Source: an uncultured Anaeroplasmataceae bacterium (GTDB taxonomy: Bacteria; Bacillota_I; Bacilli_A; Acholeplasmatales; Anaeroplasmataceae). Taken from it: 64,000 nt of DNA. The notes beneath the pieces were generated by a model. The model searched no databases and was not told where the DNA came from. It was given only the letters and a program-made list of their open reading frames with translations. Where the stretch lies: the NCBI GenBank assembly GCA_944325695.1, contig CALVBA010000003.1, positions 1 to 64,000 of the forward strand, written 5' to 3'. The translations under genes were made by a program, and so were the position numbers. Shown here piece by piece: positions 1 to 26,629 of this stretch (its first letter is position 1; the number at the start of each line of letters is the position of its first letter).

Positions 1-77
1 TGTTTGGTCACTTACATTTTAACATGATAGTAATCTCATGAGTTTTTTTGTTGCACTTGTTATGATAAATCACCTAA

Positions 78-119
78 ATAAAAAAGCATGATTTTCCATA
101 AATCGGAATATCATGCTTA
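78..119 (-). terminator. Terminator of the ABC-F / DUF4011 helicase operon
   Basis: On the minus strand a stem of AAGCATGAT and ATCATGCTT, extended by an inner TTCC/GGAA pair, is followed by TTTTTTATTT. It begins 7 nt after the helicase stop codon. Bases 1-77 to its left show no gene; a weak CATGA/TCATG hairpin with a T run near 24-51 could end a plus-strand gene outside the window. Confidence 0.8.
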
Positions 120-125
120 TTTAAA

Positions 126-3100
126 TTATTGATTATCTTCAATTACTTCTTCATCAATAACTTTTACACCTTCATTGATAAAATATACTTCATCTTCAAT
201 ATATAAAAGTGATGATGTTACTAGATCGTTTAATGCTTTTAGAATTCTTCCTTTAAACTTATCTGTTGGTTTATTATATCCAAAAACATTTGCAGACATA
301 TTTGTTAAGTCATTTAAAGTTTGAGCTTTTCCGTAATTTACTAGTGTATAAAGACACAATCTTATTTCATCATCACAAACCGTTTCTAATTTTTTAAGAG
401 AATTAATCGTGTTTTCTCTGTTTCTTACGACAATATTCGCTTCTTTAATATAAAAGAATCCATCTTTATATTGATATTTTTCATTCCATTTTAATTCTTG
501 ATAGATTTGTTCAAGCATTTCTTTGTTATTTACGCTTAATTTAGTTAATTTAGTTATCGTCATTAAACGACGTTGAATCTCCTTATAATAAATTGGAGCC
601 TCAACATTGATAATTTTACAAGCTAACTCTACAATTGTATTTTTCTCATTCCAAATTGATTGTCTACGCATTGGACCACTATACAACTGATAATCAACAA
701 ATTTTAAGTCTTTATTAATTTCTTGGCTAGCTTTACGTTTAATTACAACTTCTGTTTGTTTTTCTTCATTAACAACAAGTGTTTGCTTCATTGACTGATT
801 AATAAAATCTAATAATTTTTCAAATTCATATTTCGCATTTTGATAAAAATCAGTACTCCATACACGATAAATATGCCATTTAAATTGATTTAACATGCTA
901 TCTTGTAAAATATCACGATCAACAGTATCCTGTTTTTTATAATAAGATGTTCCGTCACATAAAATACCAACTAAATATTTATTTGGATTATTTGGATCTT
1001 TCACCGCTAAATCAATAACTTGGTTTTTTGAACCAACATATTTATCAACATTAAATCCATGTCGTAAAAGACGTTCATATAAATAACTAACAAAGGAATC
1101 TTGATTTTCTTCTTTAAATTCAATATTATCATTTCTAAATTCGGCATATTCCAAGAAGTGTTTTAAGGCTTTAACCCCTTTAGCATTTGTCTTTGATAAG
1201 TTAATATCATAACAATTAATATTAGCAAAAACTTCACATCGTAATTTAGCACGCGTGATAATAACATTCAACCGTCTTTCTCCACCATCTTTGTTAAGAG
1301 GTCCAAAATCCATCGTTAAATTTCCCTCTTTATCACGCCCATAACCAATTGATATAAAAATAACATCGCGTTCATCACCTTGAACGTTTTCTAGATTCTT
1401 AATAAAAAATGGTTCATAAGGGTGCATATTTAAAAAAGATTTTAAAACTTCATCATTAGTTTGTTTAATTCGTTTTCCTAATCTTTTATAAATTTCTTCT
1501 GTTTGAGCAGTTGAGAAAGCGACAACTCCTAATGTTAAATCACTATTTTCATGCGCATGTTTAACGATCGCATCAATAATTTGTTCAGCTTCAAGTGGAT
1601 TTGTTCTTGTCGTTCCACGATTATAATAATTTGTTGGATTATAATTAAAAATTAATCCTTTTGTTTGATCTTTATAATCTACAGATGGGAAAATCTCTAA
1701 TTTATTATCATAAAATTCTTCATTTGATGTTTCAATTAACGAATGATGTTTAGAACGATAGTGAATTGATAAAACAGTTTCTTTAGCCTTTTTCGCTAAA
1801 AATAAACTTAAAATAGATTCTAAGCTGACAAAATCGTCATTTTCTAAATCATCATTTTTTTCTGTTATATTTTCAAAGAAATTAGTTGGTGGAAGTTGTT
1901 TACTATCTCCAACAACAATAGCCTTCTTACATCTTAATAAGGCACCGAAAGCTTCAACTGGCCGAACTTGACTAGCCTCATCAAAAATAACTAAATCAAA
2001 TTCAATTTCTCCTGGTTCTAAAAAAGTGGCAATAGAAATTGGACTCATCATGAATACCGGTTTAATTTTTAATAAGCTTTCTTTCGTTTGCGAAATTAAT
2101 TTACGTAGTGGCATATGGTTTTTCTTCTTTAATAATTCTCGACGTAAAATATTCATACTATAATTTGATTCGTTAAATTTAGGCATTAAATCAAAATGTT
2201 TCTTTAAAATTTGTTTAATATTTTCTAACATTAACTTATTATTTAAATCTTTAAAGATTTCACGTTGACGTTCATGTTTAAAGCTCTTAAAGTCTTTTAA
2301 TTCTGCATTTTGTTCAAATGAATTATTTACTAATGTTTCATAACGCATATAAACAAAAATATCAATTATATAATCTAGGTCTTCTTTAAAATCTTGTGCA
2401 AAATCAACTAATTGTGTTAAATTTAGTTTATGCATTTGTTCTTCTAAATTATTATATCGTGCTAAATTATAAACTGATGAGGCATTATTTTTAAATGAAT
2501 AAAAAATTCTTTTCAAATCATTAAACGATAAATCTAAATACCATTTAGAATACCCAAAACGTTTTACCGAATCAAATTCAATAATTTCACAAAAATCTAA
2601 AAGCGTTGCTTCAAATAATGCAATATCTTCTTCAACTTTTTTAGCTAATTCAACTAAATTTTGTAAAACTTCATAATCCATACAAGCAAATTTCATTTGA
2701 GCGATAACAGTATAATCATTAATTAAATCATGAAGATCAAATAAAAATGGCACTGCATCTTTTAAGCTTGCCCAATCAGTATCATATGGATTTGTATAAG
2801 CCATATTAAATACTTCTTTAATTTGTTTACGATTTTTCTTAAAATGAGAAAGTTCTTTTTTTAAATTATAAAGTTTTTTAGCTAATTTTAATTTGGTATT
2901 ACGGCTTAAATCATCTTTAAAATAACTTAAAATTTTTGTTTCTTTTTGCTTATCTTTAATGAAAAAAACACCACTAGATAAATAATTTTGATAATTTGTT
3001 TCAAATTTATTATCTAATAAAAATGCTTTTGATTCAATAACATCTTTATACTCGTTATAAAACTCTTGGGCTTTTAAACCTGTTTCAATTGTATTCAAAA

Positions 3101-4712
3101 TAAACTTACGATCTTCACTAAAACGATAATCGGCACTATTCATTCCTTGTGAACCTTTAAAATCTTTACAGTACATAATAGAATCATAAAAGTGTTTAAA
3201 ATCAAAAATATTATAAATACTTCGACCGTTAAACATACTAGATAACTCTTGTGTATGAGTTATTAAGGTATTAAAACTATCTAATAAATCATCTAATTTT
3301 TCTTTTAATTGAGCTTCTTGAAACGGTAAAAATTCATTTAATGATAAACCATAATATGGATTTTTAGTAACTTTTCCGACAATTTTTAGAGTATCGATAT
3401 ATTCTTTTAAAAGTTCATAACGTTCTAAAAAATCATCTTCAGAGTAATCTTCTATTCCATCAATTTCTAGTTTAGGTATTTTAATATTATTTTTAGTAAG
3501 TTTATCTTCTAATTCTAATTTTAAACCATAAATTGAAATCAGCGGTAGACTCGAATTTTTGACATCAGTATTAATAATTTGCGCGTAACGATCTAAATAT
3601 TTACCAATATTATCATATTTTTCCAAAGTTTGATTAATATCAGAAATACGTGGTTCCCCCAATCGAAGTGTTTTTTCAATAGCTTGTAAAACATCCTTTT
3701 TATTAGCTTTTTGGCTGTGCAACTCTAATACTAAATCACTTAATCCTGTAGAATCAAGACGTCTTTTTACAACATCTAAAGCTGCTTTTTTCTCTGAAAC
3801 AAATAACACCTTTTTATCATTGTAAACCGCATTAGCGATGATATTAGTAATTGTCTGTGATTTACCCGTTCCAGGAGGTCCTTGTATAACTAAATCATTG
3901 TCACTTAAAACCTCTTTAATCGCAATATTTTGCGAATAATCAGCTCCTACAGCGTTAACTAATCGAATATCATTTCTTAATGGGTTAGTCGTAAAACCGT
4001 CATTAAAAATTTTATATAAAACACTGTCATTAAATGTTTTAACATTTTCAATTGATTCTAAATCCATATACATTAAAAATTTAGCATAACTGAAAAAATC
4101 AATAGCTCCAATATCATCAATTAATTCAAAATTAACATTTGTTTTATCTTGTAAGATATTGTTGACGTGATAAAAATAGTTTTCAATACTAAAGTTGTCT
4201 AAATCATAGTTTAAATCAATATTAAAATCTTGTTTAAACTTCGTAATTAAACTTATATTTAATTTAATATCTTCTTCAGTATACACCACACTGTATTTTT
4301 CCATATCAAAAGCTTTTTTCAAAGCAATCGGGATCAATACTAATGGAGCATAGATAAAATCAGATGTATTATTTTTTTCATACCACTTAACAAAACCTAG
4401 GGCCAAAAATAAAACATTACATCCTTTTTCTTCCATAATTAATTTAGCTTCTCGTGATGTTTTAGACAAGCGACGAATTAATTCATCATGGGGAATATCA
4501 CATAAAATTTTATTAACACGGTTTACTTCTAATTTATTCGTAAATGATAATAATTTCCCTTCATTAAGTAAATGAAATACTTCAATTGAATTAACATTTT
4601 TTAATTCTAAACCAATATTCTTTCGTAATTTAAAATTCAAAAGTGGATTTTTTAACGATAAATCTAACAATTCTTGACATGCTTGTTTAATATTTTCATT
4701 AATTGTTGGCAT
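126..4712 (-). CDS. DUF4011 / SF1 helicase / endonuclease-fold / DUF3320 protein (Hhe-like)
   Basis: A 1528-residue multidomain ATPase. In order: an N-terminal DUF4011-like region (about 1-260), a superfamily 1 helicase core with Walker A GPPGTGKSQT near residue 277, a long inserted helical region, Walker B DLVIFDEASQ near 904, VVGDSKQLPP near 929, VQGDERDVIFIS near 1109 and RRLNVIITRAK near 1146, then an REase-fold domain of the MTES_1575/Vsr type (about 1200-1295, with VIDLAV and LVGILCDG) and a DUF3320-like tail. This domain order matches proteins reported as the single-gene Hhe anti-phage type; the defence role here is inference. The start is ATG 4712: GGGGG lies 7 nt upstream inside the previous gene, whose TAA is 1 nt before the ATG, so translation is coupled. 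The Walker motifs look intact; nuclease activity cannot be judged by eye. Confidence 0.85.
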   Translation of the reverse strand: MPTINENIKQACQELLDLSLKNPLLNFKLRKNIGLELKNVNSIEVFHLLNEGKLLSFTNKLEVNRVNKILCDIPHDELIRRLSKTSREAKLIMEEKGCNVLFLALGFVKWYEKNNTSDFIYAPLVLIPIALKKAFDMEKYSVVYTEEDIKLNISLITKFKQDFNIDLNYDLDNFSIENYFYHVNNILQDKTNVNFELIDDIGAIDFFSYAKFLMYMDLESIENVKTFNDSVLYKIFNDGFTTNPLRNDIRLVNAVGADYSQNIAIKEVLSDNDLVIQGPPGTGKSQTITNIIANAVYNDKKVLFVSEKKAALDVVKRRLDSTGLSDLVLELHSQKANKKDVLQAIEKTLRLGEPRISDINQTLEKYDNIGKYLDRYAQIINTDVKNSSLPLISIYGLKLELEDKLTKNNIKIPKLEIDGIEDYSEDDFLERYELLKEYIDTLKIVGKVTKNPYYGLSLNEFLPFQEAQLKEKLDDLLDSFNTLITHTQELSSMFNGRSIYNIFDFKHFYDSIMYCKDFKGSQGMNSADYRFSEDRKFILNTIETGLKAQEFYNEYKDVIESKAFLLDNKFETNYQNYLSSGVFFIKDKQKETKILSYFKDDLSRNTKLKLAKKLYNLKKELSHFKKNRKQIKEVFNMAYTNPYDTDWASLKDAVPFLFDLHDLINDYTVIAQMKFACMDYEVLQNLVELAKKVEEDIALFEATLLDFCEIIEFDSVKRFGYSKWYLDLSFNDLKRIFYSFKNNASSVYNLARYNNLEEQMHKLNLTQLVDFAQDFKEDLDYIIDIFVYMRYETLVNNSFEQNAELKDFKSFKHERQREIFKDLNNKLMLENIKQILKKHFDLMPKFNESNYSMNILRRELLKKKNHMPLRKLISQTKESLLKIKPVFMMSPISIATFLEPGEIEFDLVIFDEASQVRPVEAFGALLRCKKAIVVGDSKQLPPTNFFENITEKNDDLENDDFVSLESILSLFLAKKAKETVLSIHYRSKHHSLIETSNEEFYDNKLEIFPSVDYKDQTKGLIFNYNPTNYYNRGTTRTNPLEAEQIIDAIVKHAHENSDLTLGVVAFSTAQTEEIYKRLGKRIKQTNDEVLKSFLNMHPYEPFFIKNLENVQGDERDVIFISIGYGRDKEGNLTMDFGPLNKDGGERRLNVIITRAKLRCEVFANINCYDINLSKTNAKGVKALKHFLEYAEFRNDNIEFKEENQDSFVSYLYERLLRHGFNVDKYVGSKNQVIDLAVKDPNNPNKYLVGILCDGTSYYKKQDTVDRDILQDSMLNQFKWHIYRVWSTDFYQNAKYEFEKLLDFINQSMKQTLVVNEEKQTEVVIKRKASQEINKDLKFVDYQLYSGPMRRQSIWNEKNTIVELACKIINVEAPIYYKEIQRRLMTITKLTKLSVNNKEMLEQIYQELKWNEKYQYKDGFFYIKEANIVVRNRENTINSLKKLETVCDDEIRLCLYTLVNYGKAQTLNDLTNMSANVFGYNKPTDKFKGRILKALNDLVTSSLLYIEDEVYFINEGVKVIDEEVIEDNQ

Positions 4713-4713
4713 C

Positions 4714-6462
4714 TTATCCCCCTTGTTTAACAATATATTCTAAATACTCATACCGCTCTAATTTAGCTTCGAGTAACTTATCTAACTTCATTTTTTCATC
4801 GTGTAATTCCATAACTTTAACATAATTACTGCTATTTAAAGCAATATTTTCATCTATTTGTGCTATTTTATTAGTTAAATCTTCTAACTCTTCTTCAATA
4901 TTATCCCACTCTTGTTTTTCAAAATACGATAATTTTATTTTCTTTACTTCTTTTTTAAAAGTATTTTTAACTTCTTTTACTTCATTTTTTTGATTAATTA
5001 GCTCTAATACTTGGTGAATATCTAAAATTGATTCAACAATTTTTTGATCTTTAAAGTACATAATTCGCGTATTAACCTTATCAATAAAATAACGATCATG
5101 ACTTATAATTATACACGCTCCAGCAAACTCATCTAAAAAATTTTCCAAAATTTCTAATGTATAAATATCTAAATCATTTGTAGGTTCATCAAGTAATAAA
5201 ACATTCGGAGCTGACATTAAAACACGTAATAATTCTAATCTACGACGCTCTCCTCCTGATAAGGTATTAATTTTTGAATATTGCGCATTACTATCAAATA
5301 AAAACCGTTCTAAAAGTTCGCTTGCAGTGATATATCCATTAACAGTTTTTAAAGTCGAAGCCACTTCTTTAATATAATCGATTACAAGCATATTTTCATC
5401 AGCTTTTGGAATAACTTGTTTAAAATATCCGATTTTAACCGTTGGACCGATAATAATTTCACCTGAAAGTGGCTTAAGATTATTTAAAATTAAATTAAAA
5501 AGCGTTGATTTACCACATCCATTATCACCAACTAAGCATAAGCGGTCAAATCTATTTAAATAGAAACTACATTCACTAGCTAAAATTCGATTATTATACC
5601 CATATGTCACATTTTTGAATTCAATTGTTTGTTTTCCTAAATATGACTTCATATTAATTAAATCTAACTTTTCATCGGTTTCTTTTAAATTCATGCTTGC
5701 TAAGGCTTGAAAACGTTCAATACGATCTTTTTTCTTTGTTCTTCGAGCTTCAACACCTTTACGCATCCATTCTAGTTCTTGTTTATAAAGTTGTCTTAAT
5801 TTATGTAATCTATTTTTTTCTAGCTCTAGATTAAGAGCTTTTTGTTCTAAATAATCTTGATAGTTTCCTTTATAAACCGTTATCTTACCTCTATCTAATT
5901 CGTACATCACATTTGTAATACGTTCTAAAAAATATCTATCATGTGTTACCATTAAGATACTTCCTTTATATCTTATTAAATACTTTTCAAGCCATAAAAT
6001 CATTTCATTATCAAGGTGATTTGTTGGCTCATCTAACAGTAAACAATCGCTTTTACCCGAAAAAGAAACAGCCATAGATAGACATTTTTGCATTCCGCCG
6101 CTTAACTCATCAATAAAAAGATTATGATCTTTCAATGAAAATTTATTTAAAAGACCGATAATTTCAAAGTCCTTTAAAGCTTTATTTTCTCTACAAACTT
6201 TTTTTATGTATTCATCAATGGTAATATGCTCACTAAAATTAGGAATTTGCGGTAAATAAGCTATTTTAATATCTTGTGGTTTAGTGATAAATCCCGAATC
6301 AGGAACTTCAATTTCGGCAATAACTTTTAGTAAACTGCTTTTTCCTTGACCATTTAACCCAATTATACCTATTTTTGATTCTTCTGTAAAAGAAAATGAA
6401 ACATTATCTAAAACCTTTTTTAACCCGTATGATAAATGTAAATTATGCACTGAGACAATCAT
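4714..6462 (-). CDS. ABC-F family ATPase, Uup-like
   Basis: A 582-residue soluble protein with two ABC cassettes and no membrane segments, as in the ABC-F family that acts on ribosomes. Cassette 1 has GLNGQGKSS, LSGGMQK and LLLDEPTNHLD; cassette 2 has GDNGCGKST, LSGGERRR and LLLDEPTNDLD. Between them is the basic helical linker (MRKGVEARRTKKKDR) typical of the family. A C-terminal coiled coil (about 510-580, rich in E, K, L) resembles the Uup extension. The start is ATG 6462, preceded by AAGGTGAT; longer in-frame starts lack a ribosome site. It is first in a two-gene operon with the helicase. Both catalytic glutamates are present. A target-protection resistance role is possible but not indicated. 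Confidence 0.88.
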   Translation of the reverse strand: MIVSVHNLHLSYGLKKVLDNVSFSFTEESKIGIIGLNGQGKSSLLKVIAEIEVPDSGFITKPQDIKIAYLPQIPNFSEHITIDEYIKKVCRENKALKDFEIIGLLNKFSLKDHNLFIDELSGGMQKCLSMAVSFSGKSDCLLLDEPTNHLDNEMILWLEKYLIRYKGSILMVTHDRYFLERITNVMYELDRGKITVYKGNYQDYLEQKALNLELEKNRLHKLRQLYKQELEWMRKGVEARRTKKKDRIERFQALASMNLKETDEKLDLINMKSYLGKQTIEFKNVTYGYNNRILASECSFYLNRFDRLCLVGDNGCGKSTLFNLILNNLKPLSGEIIIGPTVKIGYFKQVIPKADENMLVIDYIKEVASTLKTVNGYITASELLERFLFDSNAQYSKINTLSGGERRRLELLRVLMSAPNVLLLDEPTNDLDIYTLEILENFLDEFAGACIIISHDRYFIDKVNTRIMYFKDQKIVESILDIHQVLELINQKNEVKEVKNTFKKEVKKIKLSYFEKQEWDNIEEELEDLTNKIAQIDENIALNSSNYVKVMELHDEKMKLDKLLEAKLERYEYLEYIVKQGG

Positions 6463-6498: not shown

Positions 6499-6527
6499 AT
6501 CATATCACATTTATCCATTTTTGGAAA
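6499..6527 (-). promoter_or_regulatory. Promoter for the ABC-F / helicase operon
   Basis: TTTCCA, 17-nt spacer, TATGAT, with TGA before the -10 (extended -10). It sits between the terminator of the exporter operon and the ABC-F start. Confidence 0.55.
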
Positions 6528-6528
6528 T

Positions 6529-6560
6529 GAAAAAATCCCTAAAAATTAATTTAGGGATTC
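6529..6560 (-). terminator. Terminator of the ABC exporter operon
   Basis: AATCCCTAAA and TTTAGGGATT form a stem followed by TTTTTT on the minus strand. It overlaps the stop codon of the 597-aa exporter subunit. Confidence 0.8.
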
Positions 6561-8339
6561 CTCATTATGTTCAATATTTTTATATTGAATTTCATACAAA
6601 CTATAGTATAGTCCTTTTTTATTTATTAATTCCATATGGTTTCCTTCTTCAACGATTTCACCTTTGTGAAGAACAATGATTTTATCAGCATTTTGAACAG
6701 TTGATAAACGATGAGCTACAATTAACATAGTCCCAACATTCATCATTTTTTCTAAACTATCTTGAATCAACATTTCAGTTTCTGTATCAATATTGGCTGT
6801 TGCTTCATCTAAAATCATAATTTTAGGTTTGTGTACAATCGTTCTTGCAAAGCTTAATAATTGTCTTTGCCCACTTGAAAAGTTAGAACCACGCTCTTTA
6901 ACAACATAATTATATTCACCATCTAAATTTTCAATGAAGTCACAAGCATTGACATACTTACACGCTTTTTTAACTTCTGGTAAGGAAATTGAATCATCGC
7001 GCATTGTGATATTAGAATAAATTGTTCCACTAAATAAGAAAACATCTTGTAACATTTGCCCAATATTTTTACGTAACGATTCAATTTTAATCCTACGAAT
7101 ATCAATTCCATCAATTAAAATCTGTCCTCTTTGAATTTCGTAATTACGAACTATCAAAGCTAAAATCGTCGTTTTTCCAGCCCCTGTGGCTCCAACAAAA
7201 GCTGCCGTTTGCCCTGCATTAACTGTAAATGAAACATCTTTTAAAATCCAATTTTCATCATTATAGGCAAACCATACATTTCTAAATTCAATATCACCTT
7301 TTAAATCGTTAAGCTCAATAGCATCATCTGAATCTAAAATATTAACCTTAATATCTAAAACGTCAAATATACGTTCAGCTGATGCAAAAGACGATTGAAT
7401 AGTATTAAATTGATCGGCAAGCTGTTGAATAGGATCAAAAAATTTTACTATATAACCGTAAAAAACAATAAATAAGGCTAAATCAATTGTATTAGGATTA
7501 ATCGTGATATTAAATATATTTCCCCCAATAACGAAAATTATCCCAACATAGATGATAATTATACACGATAAGACATATAAAGAATAAATTAGTGGTCTAA
7601 AGATTGAGAAAATTATAATTTGGCGAATATCATCACGCATTAATTTATTATTTTTAACTTGAAACTCCGCAAATTTCTTTTTTTCTTGATTAAAAACTTG
7701 TGTTAGTTTAATACCAGATAAATTTTCACTTAAAAAGGCATTAACGTCACTAATTCCTTTCCTAACATTACGATAAGCTCTTCTAGAATATTTTTTAAAA
7801 TAAACTGTTGAAATTACAATAATCGGTGTTAAAGTTAAAATAATTAATGTCAACCACGTATTTATTATAAACATAATGATTAATACAAAAATAAGCGTTA
7901 AAAGATTTTTTAATAAATTAACAATCACATTTGTAAAAAAGTTATTTAAATTATTCGTATCTGAGGTAACAGCACTAACATAACGTCCGATAGGTTGACT
8001 ATTGATTTGTGCAATTGTTAAATTTTCTAAATTATTTAATAAATCTGCACGCATTTTATACATAATAGATTGACAGGCAACTTGTAGTTTCATCGCTTCA
8101 AAATATGTTAAAATCGAACTTAATATAAGGGATATAAAATAAATTACTAAAACAAAAACGATTTGTGAATAAACAATCACATCATCTCTTAAGATACTAA
8201 CAATAATTCCTTGTAAGAAAGGACCTAATAAATCAAGTAAAACAATTAAAATAACCATTAAAAAACAGATAATAAAAGTTAAAAGATGTGGTTTTATATA
8301 AACATATAAACGTCTTAAAATCGAATCATTTTTAGGCAT
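6546..8339 (-). CDS. ABC exporter subunit, BmrD/YheH-like half of a heterodimer
   Basis: A 597-residue half-transporter: six membrane helices (about 15-310), then an ATPase domain with Walker A GATGAGKTT, signature FSSGQRQ, Walker B IMILDEATANID and AHRLSTVQ. The catalytic Glu after Walker B is present, but the signature is SSGQ rather than the canonical SGGQ. That is what is expected of the subunit that completes the degenerate site in BmrCD/LmrCD-type exporters. ATG 8339 is chosen because GGAGG lies 9 nt upstream; it overlaps the end of the partner gene by 8 nt. Likely multidrug or lipid/peptide export; the substrate is not predictable. Confidence 0.88.
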   Translation of the reverse strand: MPKNDSILRRLYVYIKPHLLTFIICFLMVILIVLLDLLGPFLQGIIVSILRDDVIVYSQIVFVLVIYFISLILSSILTYFEAMKLQVACQSIMYKMRADLLNNLENLTIAQINSQPIGRYVSAVTSDTNNLNNFFTNVIVNLLKNLLTLIFVLIIMFIINTWLTLIILTLTPIIVISTVYFKKYSRRAYRNVRKGISDVNAFLSENLSGIKLTQVFNQEKKKFAEFQVKNNKLMRDDIRQIIIFSIFRPLIYSLYVLSCIIIIYVGIIFVIGGNIFNITINPNTIDLALFIVFYGYIVKFFDPIQQLADQFNTIQSSFASAERIFDVLDIKVNILDSDDAIELNDLKGDIEFRNVWFAYNDENWILKDVSFTVNAGQTAAFVGATGAGKTTILALIVRNYEIQRGQILIDGIDIRRIKIESLRKNIGQMLQDVFLFSGTIYSNITMRDDSISLPEVKKACKYVNACDFIENLDGEYNYVVKERGSNFSSGQRQLLSFARTIVHKPKIMILDEATANIDTETEMLIQDSLEKMMNVGTMLIVAHRLSTVQNADKIIVLHKGEIVEEGNHMELINKKGLYYSLYEIQYKNIEHNEESLN

Positions 8340-20696: not shown

Positions 20697-20743
20697 GTGA
20701 ATATGAAAAACGGAGAAATTAGAATTTGAAAGTGAGATATTAT

Positions 20744-21504
20744 ATGAAAAAAGAACTAATTATAATTGGTGTTCTAACGACATTATTAGCATTTATGGAA
20801 ATAAGTGGGTTACCTAGTGCCTTATTTATAAATATTGAAGTTTTAGATATTACACCATTTTATTGGACTTTAATGTTTAACTTCATAATTATTTTAGTAA
20901 TTGCATTTTTAACATTAAATTATTTTTGTTCTAATTGGAAGTTAGGACTTAATAAAAAAAATTTAAAAAATGGACTAAATAAATATGGAATAGTGGGAAT
21001 TATTGTTGGTTTAATAACTTTCATTGCTTTCTATATAGGATTAAAACCATTTAATTATAGTCCAACAATATTAAAAGTTTTAATTGAAGGAATTATATAT
21101 TATATAGGAGTTGCAATAGTTGAAGAATTATATGTTAGAGGTTTATTATTAAATCTTATTGAAAAAATATGCCATAAAAAGAAAACGATACCCTTATAGC
21201 AATTATTGTATCATCTGTTATTTTTGGGTTAGGATATATATTTGGTGTTTTAGGTCAACCTTTAATTATTATAATTACAAAAGTAGTATGGACTATTACT
21301 ATGGGGATCTATTTTGGAACAATATATAAGAAAACAAATAATTTATGGTTACCAATTATTTTACATTTTATTATAAATGTATGTGCCTTACCATATTGTT
21401 TTACAACGATAACAACTTATCCAAATATAAGTTTATATATTATTTTACCAACATATATATTACTAGGAATATATAGTTTATATATCATGAAAAACGAAAG
21501 ATAA
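20744..21504 (+). pseudogene. CPBP-family intramembrane metalloprotease, frameshifted
   Basis: A membrane protein of the CPBP (CAAX protease / bacteriocin-processing) family split by a frameshift. Frame 1 from ATG 20744 gives four or five helices and the motif EELYVRG (EExxxR), then stops at 21199. A second frame continues without stop from about 21180: NDTLIAIIVSSVIFGLGY, then FGTIYKKTNNLWLPIILHF with the HxxxN-type third motif, to 21504. The shift lies in the A-rich stretch near 21173-21186 and equals one lost base. The second motif FxxxH reads FGLGY, so the usual His is Tyr. Either a recent pseudogene or a sequencing indel. AGTGAG is 8 nt before the ATG. Confidence 0.75.
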
Positions 21505-22491: not shown

Positions 22492-23226
22492 TTATTCTAG
22501 ATTATCATATGTAATATCATCAACTTTTTCTAACCATTCATTTTGCGTATCAATTCCTGGAACCTCTAAGGCAATATGAGAAAACCAACTATCTTTTGCT
22601 GCTCCATGCCAATGTTTAACATTATTTTTAATAACAACTACATCACCTGGATTTAATTCTTGAGCTTCTTTTCCCCATTCTTGATACCATCCACGACCAG
22701 ATGTACAAAGTAAAATTTGTCCTCCACCTTCTTTAGCATGGTGAATATGCCAATTATTACGACATTTTGGTTCAAATGTAACATTAGCCATAAATACTGT
22801 TTGAGTAGGATTTGTAAGTGGTTTTAAATATGATTTTCCTGTAAACCATTGTGAAAATTGTGTATTAAGTTCTCCTAATCCAAACATCCCACCATAATTT
22901 CCGTCATCTTCTTTATATATATCTTTTGCAATTCTAAAAGCAGCCCAAGCATTAGGCCATCCAGCATAAAATGCTAAATGTGTCAAAATTGCAGCCATTT
23001 CTTGCTTAGAAACACCATTTTTCTTTGCTGTTTCAATATGATAAGTAAACGAAGAATCAATCATCCCTTTACTTACTAATGCACAAATTGTAATAATAGA
23101 ACGCGTCTTTAAATCTAAAGAACTATCTTGCCACACTTCACCAAATAAAACATCATCATTTAAAGCGGCAAATTTAGGAGCAAAAACACCTAAAGTATTT
23201 CTCCCAGCATCTTGTTTAACTTTCAT
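22492..23226 (-). CDS. Carboxymuconolactone decarboxylase-like / cupin fusion
   Basis: A 244-residue two-domain protein. Residues about 15-110 form an AhpD/CMD-like helical domain (LDLKTRSIITICALVSKG, YHIETAKKNGVSKQEM) but lack the CxxC of AhpD peroxidases. Residues about 140-230 form a cupin with the metal-type motif HIHHAKEGGGQ and a second motif PGDVVVIKNNVKHWHG. Such fusions are common in Firmicutes but their reaction is unclear. GAGGAGTGAG precedes the ATG. It lies 57 nt after the iron alcohol dehydrogenase and probably shares its transcript and the LysR regulator upstream. Confidence 0.82.
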   Translation of the reverse strand: MKVKQDAGRNTLGVFAPKFAALNDDVLFGEVWQDSSLDLKTRSIITICALVSKGMIDSSFTYHIETAKKNGVSKQEMAAILTHLAFYAGWPNAWAAFRIAKDIYKEDDGNYGGMFGLGELNTQFSQWFTGKSYLKPLTNPTQTVFMANVTFEPKCRNNWHIHHAKEGGGQILLCTSGRGWYQEWGKEAQELNPGDVVVIKNNVKHWHGAAKDSWFSHIALEVPGIDTQNEWLEKVDDITYDNLE

Positions 23227-25777: not shown

Positions 25778-26629
25778 TTAATGTTTTACTTTTTGATAAA
25801 TTTTACATTTAGACGTAAATTTACTATCCGCAGTATAAATTAATTCATTTATTTTATCTGCAGTAATACTTCCTGATTTTGGATTTTTAACCGATAAAAT
25901 TTCACCATTAATAGAAGCTTCTACATCCGATATTCAAATGCTAAATCCGTTTTTTCCATCTCACAATTAATTAATTTTAAACCCTTACAATAACAAAAAG
26001 GTTGACTTCCAATAATTTTGCATTTAATAAAAGTAATATTTTCAGAATACCAAGCAAGATATTATCCTTTTAATATACAATTTTTTACTGTAACATTTTT
26101 AGCATGCCAAAAAGCATCTTTTGTATCCAAAACACTATCCTCAATAGTTAAATTTTCAACATATTGAAATACATATTTTCCTTTCAGATTGATATTTTCT
26201 AGCTTAATATCATTAGCTAATAAAAATAAATATTCACTTTCAATTTGCGTATTTTTTAATGATATATGATGTGTTTTCCATCCAAATTCCAAAGACTTAA
26301 TTTATGAATTTTCAATTTGGACAAAATGGCATTCACGTAATGCTTTAATTCCTAATAATTTAGAGTTTTTAATAATAATATTGTCGGTATACCAAAGAGC
26401 TGCTCGGCATTTATCTGTCATCGTTACATTGATTAGCTCTATTTTATTATCATGCCAAAGAGGATATAAGTAAATTCATATAACAGGATTCAAGTTTTAT
26501 ATTATGTGCTTCTTTTAATGCCGATTCTCCATCTTCTACTCCATCAAAACAGCAATTTTTAAGATAAATGTTATTTACTCCATATAGATCTCTTTCGTTT
26601 GGAAAATTTTTATTTTCTATCACTTTCAT
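25778..26629 (-). pseudogene. DUF3737 family beta-helix protein, multiply broken
   Basis: Starts at ATG 26629 (GAGGTG upstream, MKVIENKNFPNERDLYGV). It is recognisable over its whole length as a DUF3737 protein: KALKEAHN-like KEAHNIKLESCYMN, YPLWHDNKIELINVTMTDKC, AALWYTDNIIIKNSKLLG, LEFGWKTHHISLKNT, DAFWHAKNVTVKNCILKG, and the C-terminal SVKNPKSGSITADKINELIY. The frame is broken near 26465-26472 (one base), by TAA at 26302-26304, by TAA at 26062-26064, and by a further shift near 25930. The intact family is about 280 aa. Decay by many lesions rules out a single sequencing error. The function of the family is not known to me. Confidence 0.85.

Follow-up and report, generated by a model that had tools for sequence, protein, structure and literature searches.

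A diverged DUF4011 helicase-nuclease directly behind an ABC-F gene in an Anaeroplasmataceae genome is probably a chance operon partner

A DUF4011 helicase-nuclease gene and the ABC-F ATPase gene immediately upstream of it probably form a chance operon, in which the gene for a laterally acquired PDC-S37-group helicase-nuclease, self-sufficient and working alone, stands behind a family-native gene for a translation-type ABC-F ATPase. Both lie near the start of the window, by which we mean the whole analyzed stretch of 64,000 nucleotides from an uncultured Anaeroplasmataceae bacterium (GenBank assembly GCA_944325695.1, contig CALVBA010000003.1; Table 1). As a chance partner, the helicase gene would draw on the transcript and ribosome traffic of the ABC-F gene for its expression. 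Its product would load onto foreign or aberrant DNA, most likely without a partner; the SF1 motor would translocate along the DNA, the attached Vsr-like nuclease would cut, and the C-terminal winged helices would bind DNA. What the analysis shows is the domain order, the intact helicase motifs, the Vsr-like fold, the layout of the operon, the absence of conserved pairing, and the separate histories of the two genes. Lateral transfer as the cause, the role in defense and this mechanism are what we infer, the latter two from what the protein's relatives are taken to do, and cutting by the nuclease is likewise a prediction, one acidic residue being absent from its motif.

Table 1 Features of the gene pair and its surroundings, in window coordinates.
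Feature	Position	Strand	Basis
End of multi-copy IS30-like element, contig breaking there	1..77 (matches to ~base 85)		Recurrence in genome
Terminator-like hairpin with U run, 3' of helicase	77..118	minus	z -4.39; sequence
Helicase-nuclease gene, 1528 aa from ATG	126..4712	minus	ORF calls; PADLOC PDC-S37 1340 bits, nearly whole length
C-terminal winged-helix region, overlapping weak DUF3320 match	171..644	minus	Predicted model
MTES_1575 Vsr-like nuclease domain	801..1094	minus	Pfam 84.7 bits, cut-off 38.2
SF1 helicase motor, AAA_11 + AAA_12	1221..3941	minus	GPPGTGKSQ, DEASQ, RRLNV..TRAK motifs intact
DUF4011 N-terminal domain	4239..4673	minus	119.9 bits, cut-off 22.2
ABC-F ATPase gene, 582 aa	4714..6462	minus	Two nucleotide-binding domains, linker, C-terminal ABC_tran_CTD
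Helicase ribosome site AAGGGGG, within ABC-F gene	4718..4724	minus	Sequence
Candidate promoter TTTCCA-17-TATGAT, TG before -10	6499..6527	minus	Consensus match only
Terminator-like hairpin with U run, end of upstream transporter operon	6518..6565	minus	z -2.82

The junction is as tight as the sequence-only reading had described it: a single base separates the ABC-F stop codon TAA (4716-4714) from the helicase ATG at 4712, with the ribosome site of the 1528-aa frame inside the ABC-F gene. That reading had also given the two genes one promoter and one terminator. Terminators on both sides of the pair are plausible, the hairpin at 6518..6565 sitting between the ABC-F gene and two upstream ABC transporter genes. 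A single promoter for both genes is no more than plausible, because the candidate at 6527-6499 matches the consensus at 9 of 12 positions and this AT-rich DNA holds many promoter-like sites (110 counted against 86.2 expected). Tight gaps are frequent in the window, where 17/39 same-strand neighbor genes are spaced by 10 nt or less, a count in which mechanically assigned ORF starts overstate the overlaps; the one-nucleotide junction by itself therefore carries little weight.

Behind the helicase lie the first ~77–85 bases of the window, of which the genome has eight clear further copies, 93–98% identical and seven of them at contig ends; a ninth, weaker recurrence (81% over 48 bases) was left aside. 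Places of the element end were found on contigs C1, C5, C7, C17, C21, C23, C28, C44, and C38. On C38 a similar end adjoins a fragment of an IS30-type transposase (26 bits, below the model cut-off), directly behind a terminator-like hairpin, and in the window the element end directly follows the helicase terminator. Since this end coincides with the contig break, what looks like a mobile element hides the downstream neighborhood of the helicase. An intrinsic terminator immediately precedes several element copies (clear on C3, C1, C5, and C38), suggesting a preference for terminator-linked insertion. Elsewhere in the window, short ORFs with split matches to an Rce1-like protease (20726-21504, plus strand) and to DUF3737 (26062-26629, minus strand) are likely to be decayed genes.

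The helicase-nuclease is an ordinary, somewhat diverged member of the known DUF4011 helicase family, in its PDC-S37 group. It had been credited with the domain order DUF4011, helicase, nuclease, DUF3320, and the first three stand, with DUF4011, AAA_11/AAA_12, and MTES_1575 exceeding their Pfam cut-offs. DUF3320 falls below its own (17.3 bits vs 25, E 0.0046), and an AlphaFold2 model of residues 1138-1528 (mean pLDDT 85.8, pTM 0.56) predicts winged-helix-like folds in that region. Within the model, VIA-align places a Vsr-like nuclease at about residues 1201-1314, ahead of the winged-helix-like folds, and aligns the nuclease region to I-Bth0305I (Z 12.2, rmsd 2.9, 97 aligned) and to Vsr 1cw0 (Z 10.5, rmsd 3.0, 104 aligned). 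By predicted fold and Pfam match the domain is thus Vsr-like. Foldseek alone returned no match to the C-terminal model at E<=0.001; the fold assignment rests on VIA-align, and families missing from its list are not thereby excluded.

Family profiles place the protein closest to PDC-S37. The PADLOC profile PDLC05009, which carries no stated score cut-off, matches at 1340.2 bits and spans positions 10-1512 of 1535 in the protein and 5-1540 of 1550 in the profile. The earlier label “Hhe-like” is apt as a statement of kinship (PADLOC Hhe, 538.7 bits) and too strong as one of membership, the NCBIfam model for Hhe (NF042953) scoring 748.3 bits against a cut-off of 2000 and that for ProA (NF058533) 1111 bits against 1500. 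Hhe, a DUF4011 anti-phage protein listed as “Gao Hhe” in a survey of defense systems (PMC13249269), shares DUF4011, the SF1 helicase, and the MTES_1575 nuclease with the window protein, although its model runs to 1797 positions against 1528 aa. ProA aligns to residues 73-1488 over model positions 444-1903, and differs in that the best stretch starts only at model position 444; a literature search, judged from its result listing, gave nothing on an anti-phage ProA protein. PDC-S37 is a single-gene phage-defense candidate with which the window helicase shares a full-length profile and the domain order, but it is a candidate family only, its defense role predicted and its name not found in our literature search. 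The order of helicase, Vsr nuclease, and winged helix also matches the description of MTES_1575 by Anantharaman et al. 2013 (PMC3710099), in which an SF1 helicase and a Vsr-type nuclease are joined to two winged helices overlapping DUF3320. The protein as described there has HEPN and transglutaminase domains in addition, neither of which Pfam finds in the window helicase.

At one position the nuclease departs from its closest relatives. Helicases from another family of the class (f21) read IECDG where the window reads ILCDG, a change from Glu to Leu (L1251), and two annotated plasmid relatives also have the Glu; D1234 and D1253 are retained. The nuclease might on this account be dead in the window copy, leaving the protein to function just as a helicase or roadblock, which we hold to be possible though unlikely. 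Loss of the Glu was rejected as proof in itself, both Asp being kept and the Glu often absent among relatives. The motif table holds 132 aligned helicases, five with gaps or X at these columns; in the 127 readable rows the first Asp is present in 123, the second in 125, and the Glu in just 68. Given these counts, the Glu may not be essential to the nuclease. The matching residue in Vsr is not known to be acidic. About half of the aligned DUF4011 helicases have replaced the Glu while keeping both Asp, with mostly Met or Leu in the window’s own family (f1). L079 and L080, two f21 copies at 30% identity, are missing from both the motif table and the tree, apparently lacking the motif spelling that the ORF picker required.

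The tree, a quick one of 59 rows, groups the window helicase with five f21 rows (SH-aLRT 100) and apart from f1 helicases; L025 and L030, though tagged f1, belong to f2 by origin. On this placement we rejected the window helicase as an ortholog of its own family’s. The window helicase is 43% identical to f21 helicases and at most 33% identical to full-length matches in its own family. Across the class the gene occurs in 32 of 395 genomes (E<=1e-120), and in f21 in 8/18 (E<=1e-100). Its G+C of 0.261 is not unusual against the window’s ORFs (mean 0.273, sd 0.032) and gives no compositional sign of recent transfer. The ABC-F protein, 41–47% identical to family orthologs, is native to the window’s family, and 24 sampled order-level relatives yielded no ABC-F match reaching E 1e-60. 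With such separate histories, lateral arrival is the simplest explanation: the helicase gene was most likely acquired laterally and settled behind a resident housekeeping ABC-F gene, a reading that rests on a quick tree computed without bootstrap. In two f21 genomes the gene immediately preceding the nearest helicases has a 57% identical counterpart in the window, a CMD/cupin protein (22492-23226), which here lies about 18 kb from the helicase. Three further DUF4011 helicases (L061, L063, and L065), from small genomes of the same class, contain 8–12 in-frame TGA codons, consistent with TGA encoding Trp.

Defense seems to us more likely than maintenance for the helicase, its defense role deriving from what is predicted for the family. 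It could instead be a chromosomal enzyme of DNA maintenance, acting on crosslinked, branched, or mismatched DNA, which we consider rather improbable. Three f21 genomes, all of one genus, carry the gene at a fixed place, 50/60 relatives carry some relative of it, and in Pseudomonas aeruginosa a DUF4011 gene is reported as core, present in every isolate examined, and flanking a defense hotspot (PMC10250203). By Foldseek the C-terminal model weakly resembles AlkX/YcaQ (E 1.4e-3, TM below 0.15), which points the same way. Such a role sits poorly with the gene’s patchy presence in the class and in f21, with the xenologous position of the window copy in the tree, with PADLOC and NCBIfam kin that are named anti-phage proteins, and with the occurrence of Hhe relatives on plasmids. 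Close to the helicase, two f21 genomes have genes for DNA methylases that differ in kind, which hints mildly at a defense neighborhood; in a third the downstream flank is the same, with no methylase seen by eye in the stretch examined. Beside the window helicase, whose downstream side is truncated where the contig ends, no defense gene was found.

The upstream protein is an ABC-F by its two ABC domains and ABC-F linker. It had been called Uup-like, which holds at the level of the general ABC-F ribosome-protection model NF000355 (423 bits, cut-off 380) and not at that of Uup itself (384.2 bits, cut-off 900); the EttA cut-offs are missed as well (423 vs 599 and 417.6 vs 806.75). Two ABC domains, an ABC_tran_Xtn linker, and a C-terminal domain are common to it and to EttA, Uup, and YfmR, and its best relatives of solved structure are EttA and Uup. 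B. subtilis YfmR and E. coli Uup have been linked to ribosome stalling (PMC11990639). By linker domain, the window’s genome has three further ABC-F genes. PADLOC also matched the ABC-F protein to mad3, AriA, and other profiles, which we discounted as signal common to ABC ATPases.

Relatives bear most directly on the sequence-only proposal that the two genes are a coupled unit. In such a unit the ABC-F would sense stalled ribosomes or branched DNA and work with the helicase, the junction fixing their ratio. The one-nucleotide junction with its internal ribosome site and the flanking terminators would suit this arrangement. So would the first ABC signature, LSGGMQKC here (window 6082-6105, residues 120-127) against SGG[QE]xKR in 33/33 aligned family orthologs, which may place this ABC-F under different constraint. 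Across 55 genomes of the family, one of them from the window’s genus, we found the helicase in 29 (E<=1e-100), the ABC-F in 39 (E<=1e-60), and both in 26. Contig positions, read off the helicase table and the ABC-F table and compared, show adjacency in one of those 26, the window’s own genome; the genes are on different contigs in 24 and ~430 kb apart on one contig in G002. A tblastn search with the ABC-F protein over 137 helicase loci found it adjoining a DUF4011 helicase in 0 of 133 distinct loci, with 17/137 rows showing no upstream ORF where the locus ends. Loci taken from the alignment scan represent the best 80 of 585 relatives. The sole ABC-F near any other helicase locus was in Myroides (L151), ~5 kb downstream. 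Single-protein scans of genome-contig and viral-contig collections found no relative, a phage collection gave four partial matches, and a literature search combining ABC-F, operon, helicase, and phage defense found nothing.

The surroundings of the ABC-F gene in relatives complete the comparison. Neighborhoods were fetched for 34 of 38 orthologs (L033-L053, L170-L182, family f1), and the next gene downstream was readable in 32; in every one of these it is on the same strand, at a gap of 10 nt or less in 16. These partners fall into nine unrelated clusters that change between genera, with a helicase in none of them; this ABC-F thus commonly heads operons of shifting membership. Coupling of ABC-F and helicase as a two-gene system is not supported by these counts, and since the ABC-F and the helicase also differ in phylogenetic origin, we regard the proposed unit as very improbable. 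Least credible of all is that in this genus a PDC-S37 helicase recruited a ribosome-binding, signature-drifted ABC-F as a translationally coupled partner; if true, the recruited ABC-F would link ribosome stalling in phage infection to helicase-nuclease action.

For the DUF4011 family, the frequent absence of the Glu with both Asp kept makes the active site of the nuclease directly testable. For the pair itself, a chance operon remains the reading that we favor. Two genes one base apart suggest coupling when the genome is compact, but relatives show unrelated genes downstream of the ABC-F, and a tempting false lead is thereby removed.
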